Of a stretch of DNA of 64,000 nt, positions 15,409-57,101 are shown one piece after another. This DNA comes from Marinobacter bohaiensis (GTDB taxonomy: Bacteria; Pseudomonadota; Gammaproteobacteria; Pseudomonadales; Oleiphilaceae), in assembly GCF_003258515.1 (NCBI RefSeq), contig NZ_QGEH01000001.1:1922001-1986000 (forward strand). The letters run 5' to 3'. The first letter of the stretch is position 1. Each line of letters begins with the position of its first letter. Under the pieces are notes generated by a model. That model saw nothing but the letters and a program-made list of their open reading frames with translations. It was not told the origin of the DNA and ran no database searches. Both the position numbers and the translations under genes were made by a program.

Positions 15409-15439
15409 ATGTCCAAAAAATTTACAGCGTAGGCGTCAG

Positions 15440-15456
15440 TTTTTGTACGGACGTCC
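15440..15456 (+). promoter_or_regulatory. candidate PrsR-binding (PEP-CTERM) box
   Basis: TTTTTGTACGGACGTCC. The same box, TTTTTGTACACACGTAC, lies before the PEP-CTERM gene at 49663-50358. Both match TTTTTGTACNNACGTNC and sit 34-36 bases upstream of the GG of a sigma-54 promoter, a plausible enhancer position for an NtrC-type activator. Confidence 0.6.
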
Positions 15457-15491
15457 TTTAAAAACGATAAAAATCAGTCGGTTGATAATCC

Positions 15492-15507
15492 TGGTTCCCT
15501 TCTTGCT
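15492..15507 (+). promoter_or_regulatory. sigma-54 (RpoN) promoter of the PEP-CTERM gene at 15561
   Basis: TGGTTCCCTTCTTGCT carries the invariant GG (15493-15494) and GC (15505-15506) exactly 10 bases apart, with TTGC at the -12 element. Transcription would start near 15518, leaving a short leader. The activator is expected to be PrsR, encoded at 53240-54616. Confidence 0.7.
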
Positions 15508-15560
15508 ACGTGCCGCCGTGAACAATCACTAAAAACCAGTGTTGTAACAGGAGCTGTGCA

Positions 15561-16349: not shown

Positions 16350-16400
16350 GTTGTCGAAAAATTTTACATAGCTCAGTCATTTGTTTTGGAATGCACACGA

Positions 16401-45883: not shown

Positions 45884-47455
45884 ATGGCGCGCACCGATAT
45901 CGGTTCACGTTTGAGTGTCTGGTCACCGATCATTTTCCTGTTGGCGTTTACCGTTGGGACCTGGCCGGCGCTGGTCGGCATCGTCGAACGCTGGACAAAA
46001 TGGAACGAGGCCTATTCCCACGGCTTCCTGGTCCTGGCGGTGTGCCTTGGACTGACGTACCGCAAACTCCGCCAGGTTCGTCCCCGCACCGGTTTCTACT
46101 GGCCCTGGATTTTGCCCCTGTTGTTGAGCGTTGCGGTCTATGCCGTTGGCAGCCTGCTCCTGATCGAGGCGTTCCAGCAGGTGGCCCTGCTGCCCATCCT
46201 GTTTTCGGGCCTGCTCGTTCAGTGGGGCTGGCGCCAGACGATTCCCTTCCTGATTCCCGTCGGCCTGATCGTCTTTACAATTCCATTCCTGGATTACCTC
46301 GCCTGGCCGCTGCAACTGGTTACGGTGGCGGTGAACCAGCTCTTCTTTTCGCAGCTGGGCATCGATTTCTCGGTGGAAGGCGTTTTCGTCTATTTCCCGG
46401 GCGTAGGAGCGTTCGAGATCGCGCATGGGTGTTCCGGGCTGCGCTATCTGCTGGTGGGACTGACGCTGACGTTCCTCTACGGTGAGCTTAACCTGCGCCA
46501 CCTGCAGAGCCGCGTGATCCTGGTTGCGGCCGGTGTGGCGCTGGCGCTGGCGGCGAACTGGATTCGGGTGTTCGTCATCATCTACGTGGGCTACGCCTCA
46601 GACATGACGTCGCCGCTGGTGAATCATCACGATACCTTTGGCTGGTGGGTGTTTGCCGGCACGTTGGTCCCGGTGTTCCTGATCGCGCGCTGGCTGGAAC
46701 ACCGTGAGGCCCGCCGGGATGAACGCACTGATGACCCGGCAAGCCGCGGTGAGCTCGGGGCAGGGCGGCTGCGGGTGTTTTCCGGGCTGTTCGCCTCTTC
46801 GGTACCGCTACTGGCGCTGGCTGCGCTTTTCCTGCCGACCAGCTTTGCCGAGGGGCATCGCCCGGTCGATCCCACGCACCGGAATATCCAGCTTGTCGAT
46901 GGGGATGGCTGGATGCCGCTGTTCTCCAGCAACCTGGCCGGCTGGCAGCCCATCATCGAACAGCCGGATCGTCGCTTCGAGGCAACGTACGTCGAGCGGG
47001 ACGGCATCGAGGATTCCGACGCCGCACAGCGCCCCCGCTACTTCGTGGGGCTATACAGCTACGATTTCCAGCGCCCGGGAGCCGAGGTGGTGCAGTACGG
47101 CAACCGACTGTATGACGCCGAGCATTTCATCCCGGATCGGACGTTCAGTCTGGGGGCGGCGCCGGCCGACACCCTGGCAGGGCTTTCCATCGCTGAGCGG
47201 GGGCAGGGGCAGCCGGTGTATCTGGCTTATGGCTATTACGTGGAAGGCCGCTGGGAGAGTTCTGAGCTCAAGGCCAAACTGGCCCAGCTGCCGGGCATGT
47301 TCAACCGGCGCAGCGACGCGTCGTTGTTGGTGATTGGGGTGACCTGCCAGGCTTGCGACGGGACGGAGTTGCTGGAAACGGCCGCGCCCGGGATCCAGTC
47401 CCAGGCGCGAGCCTATCTCGATCGTGTCTACGGTTCCCGTCGCCCCGGTGGCTGA
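45884..47455 (+). CDS. xrtA: exosortase A with fused EpsI domain
   Basis: 523 residues. Eight or so membrane helices (residues 15-275) hold the catalytic triad: Cys183 in AHGCSGLRYL, Arg228 in NWIRVFVIIYVGY and His249 in NHHDTFGWWVF. A periplasmic EpsI/DUF3485 domain follows from about residue 325 (NIQLVDGDGWMPLFSSNLAGW, VGLYSYDFQRPGAEVVQYGN). Exosortase A is a cysteine transpeptidase-like enzyme that cleaves PEP-CTERM signals and joins substrates to a cell-surface glycan; the fusion with EpsI is normal for XrtA. Substrates in this window are the proteins at 15561 and 49663, and perhaps the one at 31231. Confidence 0.95.
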   Translation: MARTDIGSRLSVWSPIIFLLAFTVGTWPALVGIVERWTKWNEAYSHGFLVLAVCLGLTYRKLRQVRPRTGFYWPWILPLLLSVAVYAVGSLLLIEAFQQVALLPILFSGLLVQWGWRQTIPFLIPVGLIVFTIPFLDYLAWPLQLVTVAVNQLFFSQLGIDFSVEGVFVYFPGVGAFEIAHGCSGLRYLLVGLTLTFLYGELNLRHLQSRVILVAAGVALALAANWIRVFVIIYVGYASDMTSPLVNHHDTFGWWVFAGTLVPVFLIARWLEHREARRDERTDDPASRGELGAGRLRVFSGLFASSVPLLALAALFLPTSFAEGHRPVDPTHRNIQLVDGDGWMPLFSSNLAGWQPIIEQPDRRFEATYVERDGIEDSDAAQRPRYFVGLYSYDFQRPGAEVVQYGNRLYDAEHFIPDRTFSLGAAPADTLAGLSIAERGQGQPVYLAYGYYVEGRWESSELKAKLAQLPGMFNRRSDASLLVIGVTCQACDGTELLETAAPGIQSQARAYLDRVYGSRRPGG

Positions 47456-49662: not shown

Positions 49663-50358
49663 TCAGCTCCGGCGACGGCCGGCCAGGAACAGCAGCCCCA
49701 GTCCCAGTGCCAGTAATCCCAAGGTTCCGGGCTCCGGTACCGTCATGATGCGCATGATGGAAAAGTCGCTCTGGTTGGTGCAGGCGCCGATACCGCACGT
49801 ATCGGAGTAGAGCGCATCGAACGTGAGTGAGCCGATCAGGGTGTTGCCAAATATCGATCCCACCGAGACCAGCCCTGGCGAGCCGGTTTCGGCGCTGGAC
49901 GCGGTGATGGCGGCGGAACTGCTGCTGCCGTCGATGGTTAGCGTCAGGAACTCATCGCCGGGGCTCATGTATTCATTTTTGAGAATCGCGACGCTGGAAC
50001 TGCCATCAAGGAAGTAGGCCGTGATCCGGGCAATTTCCTCGACGTCGGAAAATTCCGGTCCATCGTACAGGAACGCCAGTGTGAAGCCGCCGAGCTCGAA
50101 GCCGCTGGCGGAGCTGGCGGTCAGGCTCTCACGCAGGCCAATCTCGTTGCCGGAGGCATCCCCGGCTACGCCAACGCCGGCTGCCGTAACGCCGTATTCG
50201 GTCTTGGTGCCCAACTCGCCACCCGTGGCGGTGAAGGTCAGGCCGCCGCCGTAACCGGAAGCGATATCAACGGCGTTGATCACCGTTGCGTTGAGCGTCG
50301 GCGCCAGCAGCATCCCTGTTGTCACTGCGAGAGCCAATCCTGCGGTTCTGATACCCAT
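49663..50358 (-). CDS. PEP-CTERM sorting-domain protein
   Basis: 231 residues from ATG 50358, chosen because GGAGGAGG lies just upstream and it begins at the signal peptide (MGIRTAGLALAV, cleavage near LNA); a longer frame upstream covers its promoter. The mature part is Gly/Ser/Thr-rich with few charges, and one Cys pair (CGIGAC). The tail is VPEPGTLGLLALGLG then AGRRRS, a standard PEP-CTERM. It lies directly downstream of prsT but has its own sigma-54 promoter and upstream box. An exosortase A substrate; mature function unknown. Confidence 0.9.
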   Translation of the reverse strand: MGIRTAGLALAVTTGMLLAPTLNATVINAVDIASGYGGGLTFTATGGELGTKTEYGVTAAGVGVAGDASGNEIGLRESLTASSASGFELGGFTLAFLYDGPEFSDVEEIARITAYFLDGSSSVAILKNEYMSPGDEFLTLTIDGSSSSAAITASSAETGSPGLVSVGSIFGNTLIGSLTFDALYSDTCGIGACTNQSDFSIMRIMTVPEPGTLGLLALGLGLLFLAGRRRS

Positions 50359-50415: not shown

Positions 50416-50448
50416 TTCGCCTGGAATGATCAAAAAATCATCAAACTA

Positions 50449-50465
50449 GTACGTGTGTACAAAAA
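50449..50465 (-). promoter_or_regulatory. candidate PrsR-binding (PEP-CTERM) box
   Basis: On the minus strand TTTTTGTACACACGTAC, containing GTAC-N4-GTAC, 34 bases upstream of the -24 GG. Same pattern and spacing as 15440-15456. Confidence 0.6.
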
Positions 50466-50503
50466 CGGCATTGTAAAGAATGCTGACGGCCTCGAGCCCG
50501 CTG

Positions 50504-53191
50504 TTACAGCCGGGAGAGAATCTTCTCAGCGTCTTCGGAGCGCCCGGTGGTGCGGTAAACCTCCGCCAGATGCTGGGCTATCTCCGGGGTGTCCGGTGAC
50601 AGGGCGTAGGCTTTTTCCAGCACGGGGAGGCTTTCCGTATGGTTCCCCTGTTGGAACAGGATCCAGCCGTAGGTATCGGCGACCGCGGCGGAGTCGGGCT
50701 CGAGACTGTATGCTTTCTCGGCAAGCGCCCGGGCGTCCTGTTTCCCGGATTCATGATACAGCCACGCCAGGTTGTTGAGCGCCACGACGTTCCGTGGTGA
50801 GCCCTGGAGAATCGACTGGTAGGCGTCGATGGCTTTCTTGCTCTCACCGACGGACTGGTACGCCATCGCCAGACGCAGCTCCAGGGAGGGGTTGTCGGGG
50901 TAGCGCCCGGTCGCGTTCTCCAGGGTGTCGATCGCGCGCTGGTTCTGGCCATGTTGCTGCAGCGCGCCCACGTACAGCAAAGTCAGGCGAGGGGAGTCGT
51001 CCTTGGCCAGCGCCAGCTCGTAAAGGTCGGCCGCTTTGCCGTAGTTTTCCTGCTCCTTTTCGTAGGTCGCTTCGACCAGGTAGGGCGTCGCGGAATCCGG
51101 GTGAGCCAGTCGCGCGTCTCGGATCAGCTCCCGGGCCTTGTCCGGGTTGCCCGCGTCGAAATACGCCCTGGCGGTTTGCAGGGTGACTTTCTCGTTGTCG
51201 GGGAAAAGCACCTGGGCCCGTTGCATGATGGCCAGGGCGGCCCTGGTGTCCTCTTCCTGCAGCTTGGTCCCGGCTACGCCGCCGTAGATGTCGGCCACCG
51301 CCTGGGTGTGCGGTGACAGCTCGGTCTCGCTGACCGGTTCGAGCAGGCGCGCGGCCAGCTCGTCAGCCCGGGTGATGTTCTGGGCGCGCAGCGCCAGCTC
51401 CAGCAGCGCCAGGCGTGGTGCCACGGCGTCCGGGTGTTCCTGGGCGACCGACTCCAGATATTGGCGCAGCGCGTCCGGCGAGCTGACCTGGGCCAGCCCC
51501 TGGATGGACTGGCGGTTGTCCGGAGTCCTGGCAATTGCGGCCTTAAACTGCCTGGCCGCTTCCTCCGGGTTGCCTTCGGTGGCCGCCAGGGCCCCCAGCG
51601 CGTTATTGGCCCGTGGGTCGGTATCGGACAGTTCCAGGGCCTGCTGGTAATACTGTCGGGCCTGGTCGTTATCGCCGCCGGCGGCGGCCAGACCACCGCT
51701 GATGATCCGCGCACTGACGTTGTCCGGCTGTTCCTTGACCCAGGCGGCGGCCGATTCCTCGGCGGCCGGGATATCACCGGCCTTGGCGTAGGCGTCGACA
51801 ATCAGGGCCCGGGCCTGGTCGTTGTCTGGCGCTGTATCCATCACGGCCGACGCCTGTTCGATGGCATCCGCGGTCTGGCCCTGGCCGATCAGATAGCGGG
51901 CGTAGCGCAACCGCAGGTCGGTGTTCTCGGGATTCAGCTCAAGCGACTTCTCGATGTACTCGCGGCCGGCCACGGTGTCGCCGGCGGCCAGTGACGCGAT
52001 ACCCATCAGCGCCAGTACGCCCGGGTCGGCCTGTTCGTCGCTCAGGTTTTCAAGCAGTTCCCGGGCCTGTTCGGGGCGTTGCAGACGCAGTTGGGCGGCC
52101 GCCAGCAGTTTGCTCGCAGCGGCGGAATCCTGGGCCTGGGCGATGGGGGCGAGCAGCTCTTCGGCTTCTTCCACCCGGCCCTGCTGGAAACGGATCATGC
52201 CCAGCATGACCGAGCTCTGGACGTGGTGGGGCACCTGCTTGAGGATCTCGTTGAGGTAGCGTGCGGCTTCCGGCAGGTTGCCCTGGTGATAGGCCTCCTG
52301 GGCGGCGGCGAAGTTGCTCTTGACGGTACCCGGTGCCGATTTGGCGAGGATTTCTTCGTAGACGAAGGCTTCCGACGATTTACCCTGTTCCCGCAGGACT
52401 TCGATCAGCGAGGAGATGGTCGTGTACTTGCGGTAGGTCATGATGTCGTACTGGCCGATATCTTCCAGCGCTCGGATGTAGGCTTCTTCGGAGGTGTTCC
52501 ACTGTTTCCGCGCCTTGGCCAGTTGGGCCTTCCACAGCCACAGCTCCGGGTAGTTGGGGTCGATCTCGGTGGCCTCGGCGATGCGCTGATCGGCCTGGGC
52601 GCTGTCATCCCGGGCCTGGGCCACCTTCGACAGCCCGATCAGGGCCGGGACCGAGGAGCCGTCGGCGTCGAGGGCCGACTGATAGGCCTGTTGGGCAGAA
52701 TCCAGCTGCTTTTCGTCGAGGAAAATATCGCCCCGAAGCAGGTCCGCCTGGACGGCCTGGGTGCGGTCCGGATTGTGAAGGCCCTTGAGCGCTTCGAGTG
52801 CCGCTTCGCTCTGGCGGCGCATCAGGTGAGTGCGGGAAAGGATCAACTGGATGCGGTTGTGGACGCTGTCCGGGGTGTTCTCACCGTCGAGTCGTTTGTC
52901 GATCTCCTTGACCTGGCGGGCGGCCGTCACCGCGTCTCCGGCTTCCACGAGGTTGTCGACAATGATGAAGTAGGGTTCGACCTCACCGGGATTCAGCTCG
53001 ATCGCGCTGCGGGCTTCCAGGGTGCTGGCCTTGAGTTCGCCCTGGCGCTGGAAGAAACGGGCCTGATCCAGGTGGCTCAGGTACTGGATCTCCTGTTGGC
53101 TCATTTCTTCTTCGCCGTCGCTGCAGCCGGTCAGGAACAACAGCATCGCCGAAGCCAGCAGGGTAATGCGGAACAACATCTTCAGGGTCAT
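50504..53191 (-). CDS. prsT: PrsT, XrtA/PEP-CTERM system TPR-repeat lipoprotein
   Basis: 895 residues from ATG 53191 (AAGGA upstream; GTG 53212 is less likely). The lipoprotein signal LLFLTGCSDGEE carries a clear lipobox. The rest is about twenty helical TPR units, recognisable by repeats such as ALDADGSSVPALIGLSKVA, LELNPENTDLRLRYARYLI and LALAKDDSPRLTLLYVGAL. This length and organisation match TIGR02917, whose members occur only with exosortase systems. It is probably a periplasmic or outer-membrane scaffold for assembling exported glycan or protein. It is 48 bases downstream of prsR in the same direction. Confidence 0.93.
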   Translation of the reverse strand: MTLKMLFRITLLASAMLLFLTGCSDGEEEMSQQEIQYLSHLDQARFFQRQGELKASTLEARSAIELNPGEVEPYFIIVDNLVEAGDAVTAARQVKEIDKRLDGENTPDSVHNRIQLILSRTHLMRRQSEAALEALKGLHNPDRTQAVQADLLRGDIFLDEKQLDSAQQAYQSALDADGSSVPALIGLSKVAQARDDSAQADQRIAEATEIDPNYPELWLWKAQLAKARKQWNTSEEAYIRALEDIGQYDIMTYRKYTTISSLIEVLREQGKSSEAFVYEEILAKSAPGTVKSNFAAAQEAYHQGNLPEAARYLNEILKQVPHHVQSSVMLGMIRFQQGRVEEAEELLAPIAQAQDSAAASKLLAAAQLRLQRPEQARELLENLSDEQADPGVLALMGIASLAAGDTVAGREYIEKSLELNPENTDLRLRYARYLIGQGQTADAIEQASAVMDTAPDNDQARALIVDAYAKAGDIPAAEESAAAWVKEQPDNVSARIISGGLAAAGGDNDQARQYYQQALELSDTDPRANNALGALAATEGNPEEAARQFKAAIARTPDNRQSIQGLAQVSSPDALRQYLESVAQEHPDAVAPRLALLELALRAQNITRADELAARLLEPVSETELSPHTQAVADIYGGVAGTKLQEEDTRAALAIMQRAQVLFPDNEKVTLQTARAYFDAGNPDKARELIRDARLAHPDSATPYLVEATYEKEQENYGKAADLYELALAKDDSPRLTLLYVGALQQHGQNQRAIDTLENATGRYPDNPSLELRLAMAYQSVGESKKAIDAYQSILQGSPRNVVALNNLAWLYHESGKQDARALAEKAYSLEPDSAAVADTYGWILFQQGNHTESLPVLEKAYALSPDTPEIAQHLAEVYRTTGRSEDAEKILSRL

Positions 53192-53239
53192 GGAAAAGTC
53201 CTTGTCATGCACTCGCCGGAAAGTCCTTGCCCGCCCGCA

Positions 53240-54879: not shown

Positions 54880-56994
54880 TTAGCCGCTCTCCGCCAGTTT
54901 CGGTTCGGTCGGTTCGGAATCCGACGCGCGGGTGTCCGGCCGCCCCAGCGGCAGACGCACGGTGAAACACGACCCCAACCCGGGCTCGCTGGTGACGTCG
55001 ATGTTGCCGCCGATCTGGCGCACGTATTCCCGGGCCTGGTAGGCGCCGATGCCCATGCCCGCCAGGCCCTTGGTGCTTTCGAACGGCTTGAACAGCTTCA
55101 TCTTGATGAACTCCTCGCTCATGCCTGAGCCGGTGTCCTGGATAAAGATGACCACGTGGTCGGAACTCTGCTTGACCGTCAGGGCCACCTCGCCGGCTGG
55201 CGGTGTGGCGTCCTGGGCATTCTGGATAATGTGCCCGAGCACGCTGTGTAGCTGCTCCGGGTCGCCCTCCACCCAGATGGGCTGGTCGCCGGGCTGATAG
55301 CTCGGGTGTGGTTCGCTGCGGGCGTGATAGTGGACCAGTTCCGACAGCAGGTTGTTCAGCTCGATTGACTGTACCGGTAAGTCCTCCCGCGCCGGCCTGC
55401 GGATATGGTCGACCAGACCTGACATTTTCGTCACGGCGTGTTGGGTGGTGCTGATCATGTCGTCCACGAAGGCCGGGTTGTGGCGGTGCTTCTCGGCGTT
55501 GCGCACCATCAGCGACAGTTGGGCGATCATGGTTTTCAGGTCGTGCACCAGGAAGGCGGACGTCTTGGATACCGCCTCGAACTGCATGGCCCGCGACAGC
55601 CGGTTCTGGGCATCCGCCTGGGCCAGCACGTTACAGGTCTGGCGCGCCACCACGCGGATCAGGTCGAAGTTCTCCCAGTTCAGTTCTACCCGGGCGTAAG
55701 GGGAGCCGATCAGGCAGATGCCGTAGAGCTCCTCACCCAGGTACAGCGGGATGATCAGCCAGCCATCGGGGAAGCGCAGAACGGCGTCGGGGATTTCCAG
55801 CAGTTCGTAGCGCACCGGGTCCTGGTGGTATTCGGACAGGTCGATGATCCACTCCTTCTCCCTGAAGAAGCCGATCATGTTGGCGTCACCGTCTATCAGT
55901 GTGTGCCGGGGTGGCGTCATGTTGACGCTGGAGTAGAGCACGTAGTTGCCGTCGTTGTCCCGAACCCAGAGAGCGCCGGCGTTGCTTTCCACCAGGTCGG
56001 CCATGATCCGCACCACCCGTTCCGGGAGCGGTGGATCTTCCGTCAGGTTGGCGAAAATCTGCGTCATCTTCAGCCATTCTTCGCGGTAGTCGTACTTGTA
56101 GTCGAAGAAGTTCTGGCTGATGAAAATCATCAGGCGGGCGCGGAAACGGCTGGAACTGAGCAGGGCGGCGAACAGCACCAGGAAGATCGACAGGAACAGC
56201 ACCTGCAGCGCCTCGCCCCAGGCACCGCCCAGGGCCCGCACGTAATAGCCGCCGAATGCCACGAACAGCAGGTAGCTCCCGGCGAACGCCAGGGCACCCA
56301 CGTGGAACACGGCGTTGCGTGAGAGCTGGAAATCCACCGGCTGCTTGCGGGTGTTGATCACGTTGACGGCGAACAGCGGCACCAGGAAGGCGTTGACCGC
56401 GCCGCGGGCGGACCAGAAGGAGTTGGAGATCTGGCCGAAGAGCAGGGCATCGGCGTACATGAAGAAGTCGTAGGCGAAGATTCCGCCGATACCGATGCAC
56501 AGGTACTTCATGCTGGAGCGGCCGAAGGTCAGGGAGTTACGCCAGATTTGTTCGATCAGGCAGATCCCCAGGAGAGAAAGGGTGATCTGGCCGACGATCT
56601 TGGTCTTGCCGTCCAGCAGTTGCCAGCCCAGGGCGTATTCGAAGAGGCCGCTGATCAGCAGTACGGCGATCAACAGGCCAATACTGGTGCCCAGCACGCG
56701 GCGCAACCGACCGGCCAGTACGCCGGAACGGCTGCCGTCCCGGATCAGGGCGAAGAGCACCGCGACCCAGGCGCCGTCGCGCACCAGTTCGAGCAGGTAG
56801 CGGATGAAGAAGGGCGGCTGGTTCCAGATCAACTGACCGACGAGGGAGGCCGCCCAGATGGTCGATACCATCGCGGCCAGCATCAGCGCGCGGTCGGTGT
56901 TGCGTCGCAGGTATTTAGAGCTGACCAGGATTGCCAGGGCTGCGAAAGCGAGAGCGGCAGCCGAGTGGCTCACCAGGCTGAAGTCGATGGTCAT
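54880..56994 (-). CDS. prsK: PrsK, XrtA/PEP-CTERM system histidine kinase
   Basis: 704 residues from ATG 56994. About eight N-terminal membrane helices (residues 10-300) are followed by a GAF-like domain (about 310-460), a dimerisation/phosphoacceptor segment with His in SAFLVHDLKTMIAQL, and a HATPase domain with N box (IIQNAQDATPP), G1 box (DTGSGM) and G2 (GMGIGAYQ). Matches TIGR02916. It should phosphorylate PrsR in response to an unknown envelope or matrix cue. Spacing to prsR is unusually long for the pair. Confidence 0.94.
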   Translation of the reverse strand: MTIDFSLVSHSAAALAFAALAILVSSKYLRRNTDRALMLAAMVSTIWAASLVGQLIWNQPPFFIRYLLELVRDGAWVAVLFALIRDGSRSGVLAGRLRRVLGTSIGLLIAVLLISGLFEYALGWQLLDGKTKIVGQITLSLLGICLIEQIWRNSLTFGRSSMKYLCIGIGGIFAYDFFMYADALLFGQISNSFWSARGAVNAFLVPLFAVNVINTRKQPVDFQLSRNAVFHVGALAFAGSYLLFVAFGGYYVRALGGAWGEALQVLFLSIFLVLFAALLSSSRFRARLMIFISQNFFDYKYDYREEWLKMTQIFANLTEDPPLPERVVRIMADLVESNAGALWVRDNDGNYVLYSSVNMTPPRHTLIDGDANMIGFFREKEWIIDLSEYHQDPVRYELLEIPDAVLRFPDGWLIIPLYLGEELYGICLIGSPYARVELNWENFDLIRVVARQTCNVLAQADAQNRLSRAMQFEAVSKTSAFLVHDLKTMIAQLSLMVRNAEKHRHNPAFVDDMISTTQHAVTKMSGLVDHIRRPAREDLPVQSIELNNLLSELVHYHARSEPHPSYQPGDQPIWVEGDPEQLHSVLGHIIQNAQDATPPAGEVALTVKQSSDHVVIFIQDTGSGMSEEFIKMKLFKPFESTKGLAGMGIGAYQAREYVRQIGGNIDVTSEPGLGSCFTVRLPLGRPDTRASDSEPTEPKLAESG

Positions 56995-57101
56995 GGCTGC
57001 ACTCGTCCCGTGAGCTCCCAAAACACAGACTGGAATCGTTTATTTTCGAATCAGTATAGAGGCAAACCATCCGGGCTTGCATGTGGTCGGGCGGCCTTGC
57101 C

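Follow-up and report, generated by a model that had tools for sequence, protein, structure and literature searches.

The window analysed here is a stretch of 64,000 nucleotides of the Marinobacter bohaiensis genome (4.76 Mb, 11 contigs). It carries two PEP-CTERM genes, an exosortase gene and the genes prsT, prsR and prsK, which adjoin PEP-CTERM gene 2 (Table 1). In the window just these two genes were matched by the TIGR02595 tail model at an E-value of 0.1, in agreement with a reading that had been made from the sequence alone. The PrsR protein of the window shares 77-82% identity with proteins of Marinobacter and Tamilnaduibacter. It has a GAFTGA loop, by which proteins of this kind contact sigma-54, and one rpoN gene was found in the genome. 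Of the 523 aa of the exosortase frame, the XrtA model spans only residues 17-270; a fused partner domain may make up the second half.

Table 1. Features of the window, with positions counted from its first nucleotide
Feature	Sequence	Position	Strand	Evidence or remark
Motif 1 (predicted PrsR operator) of PEP-CTERM gene 1	TGTCCAAAAAATTTACA	15410-15426	+	17 nt, 3' end TTTACA; spacer 65 to T of TGG
Box, gene 1 promoter	TTTTTGTACGGACGTCC	15440-15456	+	between motif 1 and the -24 element; most likely incidental
Sigma-54 -24/-12 promoter (Haft motif 2) of PEP-CTERM gene 1	TGGTTCCCTTCTTGCT	15492-15507	+	8/11 scored consensus positions
PEP-CTERM gene 1, 243 aa		15561-16292	+	TIGR02595 29 bits (cut-off 16)
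Further motif 1 copy upstream of EPS glycosyltransferase (epsB-type) gene	TGTCGAAAAATTTTACA	16352-16368	+	
Exosortase (XrtA/EpsH family)		45884-47455	+	TIGR02602 130.6 bits, above cut-off 105.55; TIGR03109 176.5 bits, below cut-off 208
PEP-CTERM gene 2		49663-50358	-	TIGR02595 22.7 bits (cut-off 16); start taken as ATG at 50358
Sigma-54 promoter of PEP-CTERM gene 2	TGGCACGCTACTGGCT	50415-50400	-	10/11 scored consensus positions
Box, second copy, gene 2 promoter	TTTTTGTACACACGTAC	50465-50449	-	exact pattern match
Motif 1 (predicted PrsR operator) of PEP-CTERM gene 2	CGTCAGCATTCTTTACA	50488-50472	-	spacer 56 to T of TGG
prsT, TPR protein		50504-53212	-	TIGR02917 417 bits
prsR, sigma-54 response regulator, GAFTGA loop		53240-54616	-	TIGR02915 673.5 bits; FGFEKGAFTGA in translation
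prsK, histidine kinase		54880-57021	-	TIGR02916 674 bits

Proteobacterial PEP-CTERM genes have been described as being preceded by a 17-nt motif 1 ending in TTTACA and, after a spacer (mean 62.8, SD 10.6, range 32-92), by a sigma-54 motif 2 (Haft 2006, PMC1569441). Both window promoters have the same motif 1 end and a sigma-54 site with the -24 GG and -12 GC, and they lie at the published position, 23-221 nt ahead of the PEP-CTERM start codon. Their spacers are inside the published range, where the published border of motif 2 may differ from the T of TGG from which we counted, and prsK, prsR and prsT are present, as in the published element. The two promoters are fresh examples of this known PEP-CTERM type of PrsR/sigma-54 promoter. 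The sequence-only reading had placed a sigma-54 promoter ahead of PEP-CTERM gene 1 and was right in this, and the genome has prsK, prsR, prsT and rpoN.

In the whole genome TIGR02595 detected eight PEP-CTERM genes at an E-value of 0.1. Seven of them had NGTC-N7-TTTACA together with a -24/-12 site upstream, and the gene at locus L010 was found to be without this pair. The stricter pattern YGTC-N7-TTTACA occurred at 17 sites in the genome, as compared to 6 for the backwards pattern. Six of the 17 sites were the PEP-CTERM promoters already found, and the motif of the seventh promoter (L011) starts with A. One copy lies upstream of the EPS glycosyltransferase gene of the window. Another, at C1:576048, was followed at spacer 43 by a -24/-12 site, and through it a ninth PEP-CTERM-like gene was identified outside the window, L194:1811-2350 (G000:C1). 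It encodes a protein of 179 aa with a signal-like start and the C-terminal end VPEPSPLLLSLLGVVALATRKVLLRRRKA, a VPEP...RRRKA tail. This protein gave no TIGR02595 match at E 0.1 and no NCBIfam match at E 0.001; motif 1 and the spacing rule described below picked out a gene that the tail model does not list. The remaining nine sites were inspected one by one and none was seen ahead of a PEP-CTERM gene; three of these nine sit within long frames on the opposite strand.

The spacing between motif 1 and the sigma-54 site was analysed in 282 PEP-CTERM upstream regions. Their family, order and class sets comprise the highest-scoring PEP-CTERM tails among those listed (109 from the family list and 115 from the order and class lists). 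Locus L220 was left out because PEP was missing at the expected place, and L388, L392 and L189 were kept despite lacking a strict PEP. The first counts were made with a -24/-12 score of 6 and spacers of 28-94. The final search was for NGTC-N7-TTTACA and a -24/-12 score of at least 7/11 at any spacer from 20 to 110; the TTTACA end was taken from Haft 2006 and the YGTC start was derived in this analysis. A pair of motif 1 and sigma-54 site was detected in 135 of the 282 regions. The count becomes 136 with L123, a locus cut by a contig end, where motif 1 is followed at spacer 75 by a sigma-54 site and the box discussed below is missing; all statistics are on 135.

The spacers of the best pairs fell into seven classes, 41-44, 50-56, 61-66, 71-77, 85, 95-97 and 106-108, with borders drawn after the data had been inspected. 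The class means were 42.3, 52.1, 63.4, 74.2, 85, 96 and 107, with a slope of 10.94 bp. Vector strength (R), which needs no borders, was 0.75 at 11.1 bp for the 135 spacers and 0.26 at maximum in 3000 smoothed resamples. When all pairs were counted instead of the best one per region, 142 pairs were obtained, four of them off the classes (20, 22, 28 and 67), and R was 0.73. Outside the window's family, with one locus per genome (55 loci from 44 families), the pair was present at 27 loci from 21 families. All 27 spacers were within 2.5 bp of the grid fitted on the other 108, and at the looser score-6 settings 2 of 27 values were off the classes (67 and 82). At L320 two overlapping motif copies tie, giving a spacer of 74 or 67, and 74 was used; at L350 the value 82 was superseded by a better-scoring site at 108. 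TTTACA sites without GTC (20 sites) had a wider spread of spacers, from 25 to 105. Counted from the T of TGG, the last 45-50 spacer bases of the 135 promoters were rich in A/T near -31, -20 and -9, in stretches about 11-12 bases apart that exceeded those of shuffled sequences. The spacer of gene 2 (window 50416-50471) was the sole one of 56 bases among the 135 promoters and lies 3.9 bp off the helical grid. The gene 2 promoter may therefore be weaker or assisted, which includes a possible role of the box there.

The sequence-only reading had singled out another element, a box shared by both promoters, and had proposed it as the exact PrsR operator of this lineage. Its arrangement with GG-N10-GC was confirmed, with 36 bases from the box end to GG at gene 1 and 34 at gene 2; the box lies 33-35 bases ahead of the T of TGG in both promoters. 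The second copy is on the other strand, as claimed, but the boxes are 35.0 kb apart and not 36 kb. Motif 1 is upstream of the box by 13 bases at gene 1 and by 6 bases at gene 2. Searching the whole genome with the exact pattern gave two matches, and one more with two mismatches. Both exact copies were indeed in PEP-CTERM promoters, but a third exact copy of TTTTTGTACNNACGTNC was not found, and the box was present at only two of the nine PEP-CTERM genes of the genome (eight by TIGR02595 and the ninth).

The best matching segment of the two spacers was CAGTTTTTGTACGGACGTCCT / CCGTTTTTGTACACACGTACT. None of 2000 first-order Markov sequences attained the similarity score of this spacer pair; among 2000 mononucleotide shuffles, 0.1% did. 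Among 2926 pairs of non-redundant PEP-CTERM spacers it ranked third, and at least 14 of 17 identical bases were reached by 41 of the 2926 pairs of PEP-CTERM spacers. As the pattern was derived from these two sites after the fact, the resemblance is notable and not decisive. The box most likely reflects a chance likeness between two spacers of the same genome, picked by eye. It could instead be a species-specific site through which a second regulator or a nucleoid protein tunes both promoters, which we regard as unlikely. The similarity of the pair above random versions of itself, the near-constant position relative to -24 and the odd spacer of gene 2, which might need help, are consistent with such a site. 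However, the genome has no third exact copy, the pair was chosen post hoc and two unrelated pairs score higher, and the nearest orthologs are without the box. Gene 1's nearest orthologs (L129 and L139, 69% identity) kept motif 1, the sigma-54 site and the 65-base spacer, and those of gene 2 (L134 and L172, 75-76%) kept motif 1 and the sigma-54 site with a spacer of 54. The box was missing at all of these, the four closest orthologous promoters in the genus.

The same orthologs also speak against the view that PrsR uses the box as its operator in this lineage, a reading that we found unsupported and consider very improbable. It is true that the genome has two exact copies, both in PEP-CTERM promoters and at a near-equal distance to -24. 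Nevertheless, TTTTTGTAC was present in only 2 of the 282 upstream regions, both of them the window promoters, and the other motif 1 PEP-CTERM promoters of the genome are without it. When treated like motif 1, the box end is 5.4 and 3.4 bp off the helical grid. The candidate operator already proposed in print, motif 1 of Haft 2006, is a different sequence just upstream of the box, so the claim that the box is a new exact operator falls. The box itself is not mentioned in the accessible text of that paper.

Other roles for the box were considered and rejected. As a family-wide operator, it occurred with at most one mismatch in 63 of 151 family genomes, but the control read backwards was commoner (89 box matches listed, as compared to 173 for the control in the summed table). 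Thirty of the 89 listed box sites were opened, and none had a sigma-54-like site (score at least 8/11) within 80 bases. Within 3 kb of one of the 30 (L099) there were both a PEP-CTERM tail and motif 1, but the box is located beyond the end of the gene with this tail. Inspection of a further exact box among the family matches listed (G092, L117) revealed neither motif 1 nor a PEP tail nor a sigma-54-like site. Compared by eye with motif 1 in inverted or shortened form, the box does contain TGTA and ACG, but at a different spacing. A second in-phase role was rejected, as the box falls off the helical grid.

Returning to motif 1, the PrsR operator in the sampled Gammaproteobacteria is probably a quantised enhancer, placed at whole helical turns from -24 (41-108 bp, seven registers, about 10.9 bp per step) with phased A/T tracts, the spacer changing by whole turns only. 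It is hardly credible that the spacing classes are an artefact of common ancestry or of the search and not helical phasing: many promoters do come from related genomes and the class borders were set after seeing the data, but the periodicity held in the 58 of 135 spacers that passed a strict filter on spacer identity (R 0.72 at 10.95 bp) and with one promoter per family (21 values, R 0.86), and with every spacer from 20 to 110 permitted the 282 regions gave 0 pairs with a reversed motif and 1 pair with an antisense -24/-12 site (score at least 8). About half of the 282 regions were without a strict pair of motif 1 and sigma-54 site, so the spacing rule describes a subset only. YGTC-N7-TTTACA followed by -24 at about 42, 52, 63, 74, 85, 96 or 107 bases fits about half of the PEP-CTERM promoters examined.

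We think it very likely that both window genes carry the known PrsR/sigma-54 promoter, that PrsR acts from motif 1 on a set helix face and that the box is coincidental. In the proposed sequence of events, a signal through PrsK would lead to phosphorylated PrsR, which would bind the 17-nt YGTC-N7-TTTACA of each promoter. From motif 1 the bound PrsR would reach sigma-54 RNA polymerase at -24/-12 by means of a short DNA loop, and it would open the promoter by ATP hydrolysis. An operator that is fixed to one helix face relative to -24 would give spacer lengths that step by about 10.9 bp. The box would sit in the loop DNA and most likely be without function there. The sequence itself shows motif 1 and the sigma-54 site, the spacing classes and the Prs genes, and that none of the other promoters examined has the box; PrsR binding to motif 1, the looping and the lack of function of the box are predicted. 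Motif 1, and not the box, is the DNA to footprint first.

Several regulated systems resemble the one proposed here. In Aquincola tertiaricarbonis RN12, pepA requires RpoN1 (PMC9850573). Like the window genes, it is a PEP-CTERM gene with a -24/-12 site, and its start has been mapped with an earlier-predicted enhancer upstream; it belongs to another organism, however, and its authors call for experiments on the regulatory mechanism (PMC9850573). The regulator DVUA0057 of Desulfovibrio vulgaris is, like PrsR, a response regulator for which PEP-CTERM targets had been predicted, and the five of them were enriched in DAP-chip (PMC3333781). This protein is from another lineage, and according to the figure legend the binding motif was not validated for its regulator group (PMC3333781). 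A family of PEP-CTERM genes in Zoogloea is regulated by RpoN and PrsK-PrsR, as summarised in PMC9012009. NtrC at glnA is, as proposed for PrsR, a response-regulator enhancer-binding protein that acts through a DNA loop (PMC7408454). The glnA system has several sites and works over widely varied distances, whereas the operator here is in set helical registers. One two-site NtrC system depends on the face of the helix (reviewed in PMC7408454), which means that the face rule in itself has a precedent in this activator class.

In the accessible text of Haft 2006 the spacer is given as mean, SD and range only, whereas steps of about 10.9 bp were observed here. Step-wise spacing was not found in that text or in the other literature searched, which consisted mostly of papers outside subscription, and we claim no priority for it. 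The step-wise spacing yields an easily tested prediction on how PrsR reaches RNA polymerase. If the rule is true, PEP-CTERM promoters would provide a series made by nature in which the helical face rule of a sigma-54 activator and the in vivo repeat length of DNA can be studied.

Separately, an IHF-like word, [AT]ATCA[AG]-N4-TT[AG], was present in 9 of the 135 spacers, as compared to 0.5 on average and 3 at most in 200 Markov versions. Six of the nine were at one position, but several of these promoters may be orthologous.

Two of the 17 genomic copies of motif 1 deserve mention. One of the nine sites not assigned to a PEP-CTERM gene, at C1:1996443 (-), is followed in register by a -24/-12 candidate (spacer 86, score 8), but this points into the 3' end of an opposite-strand frame of 392 aa. 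For the copy upstream of the EPS glycosyltransferase gene of the window, a search for a convincing -24/-12 site gave a top candidate at spacer 103 with a score of 7, which we did not consider convincing. Given this copy of motif 1, PrsR might also act on the EPS operon.
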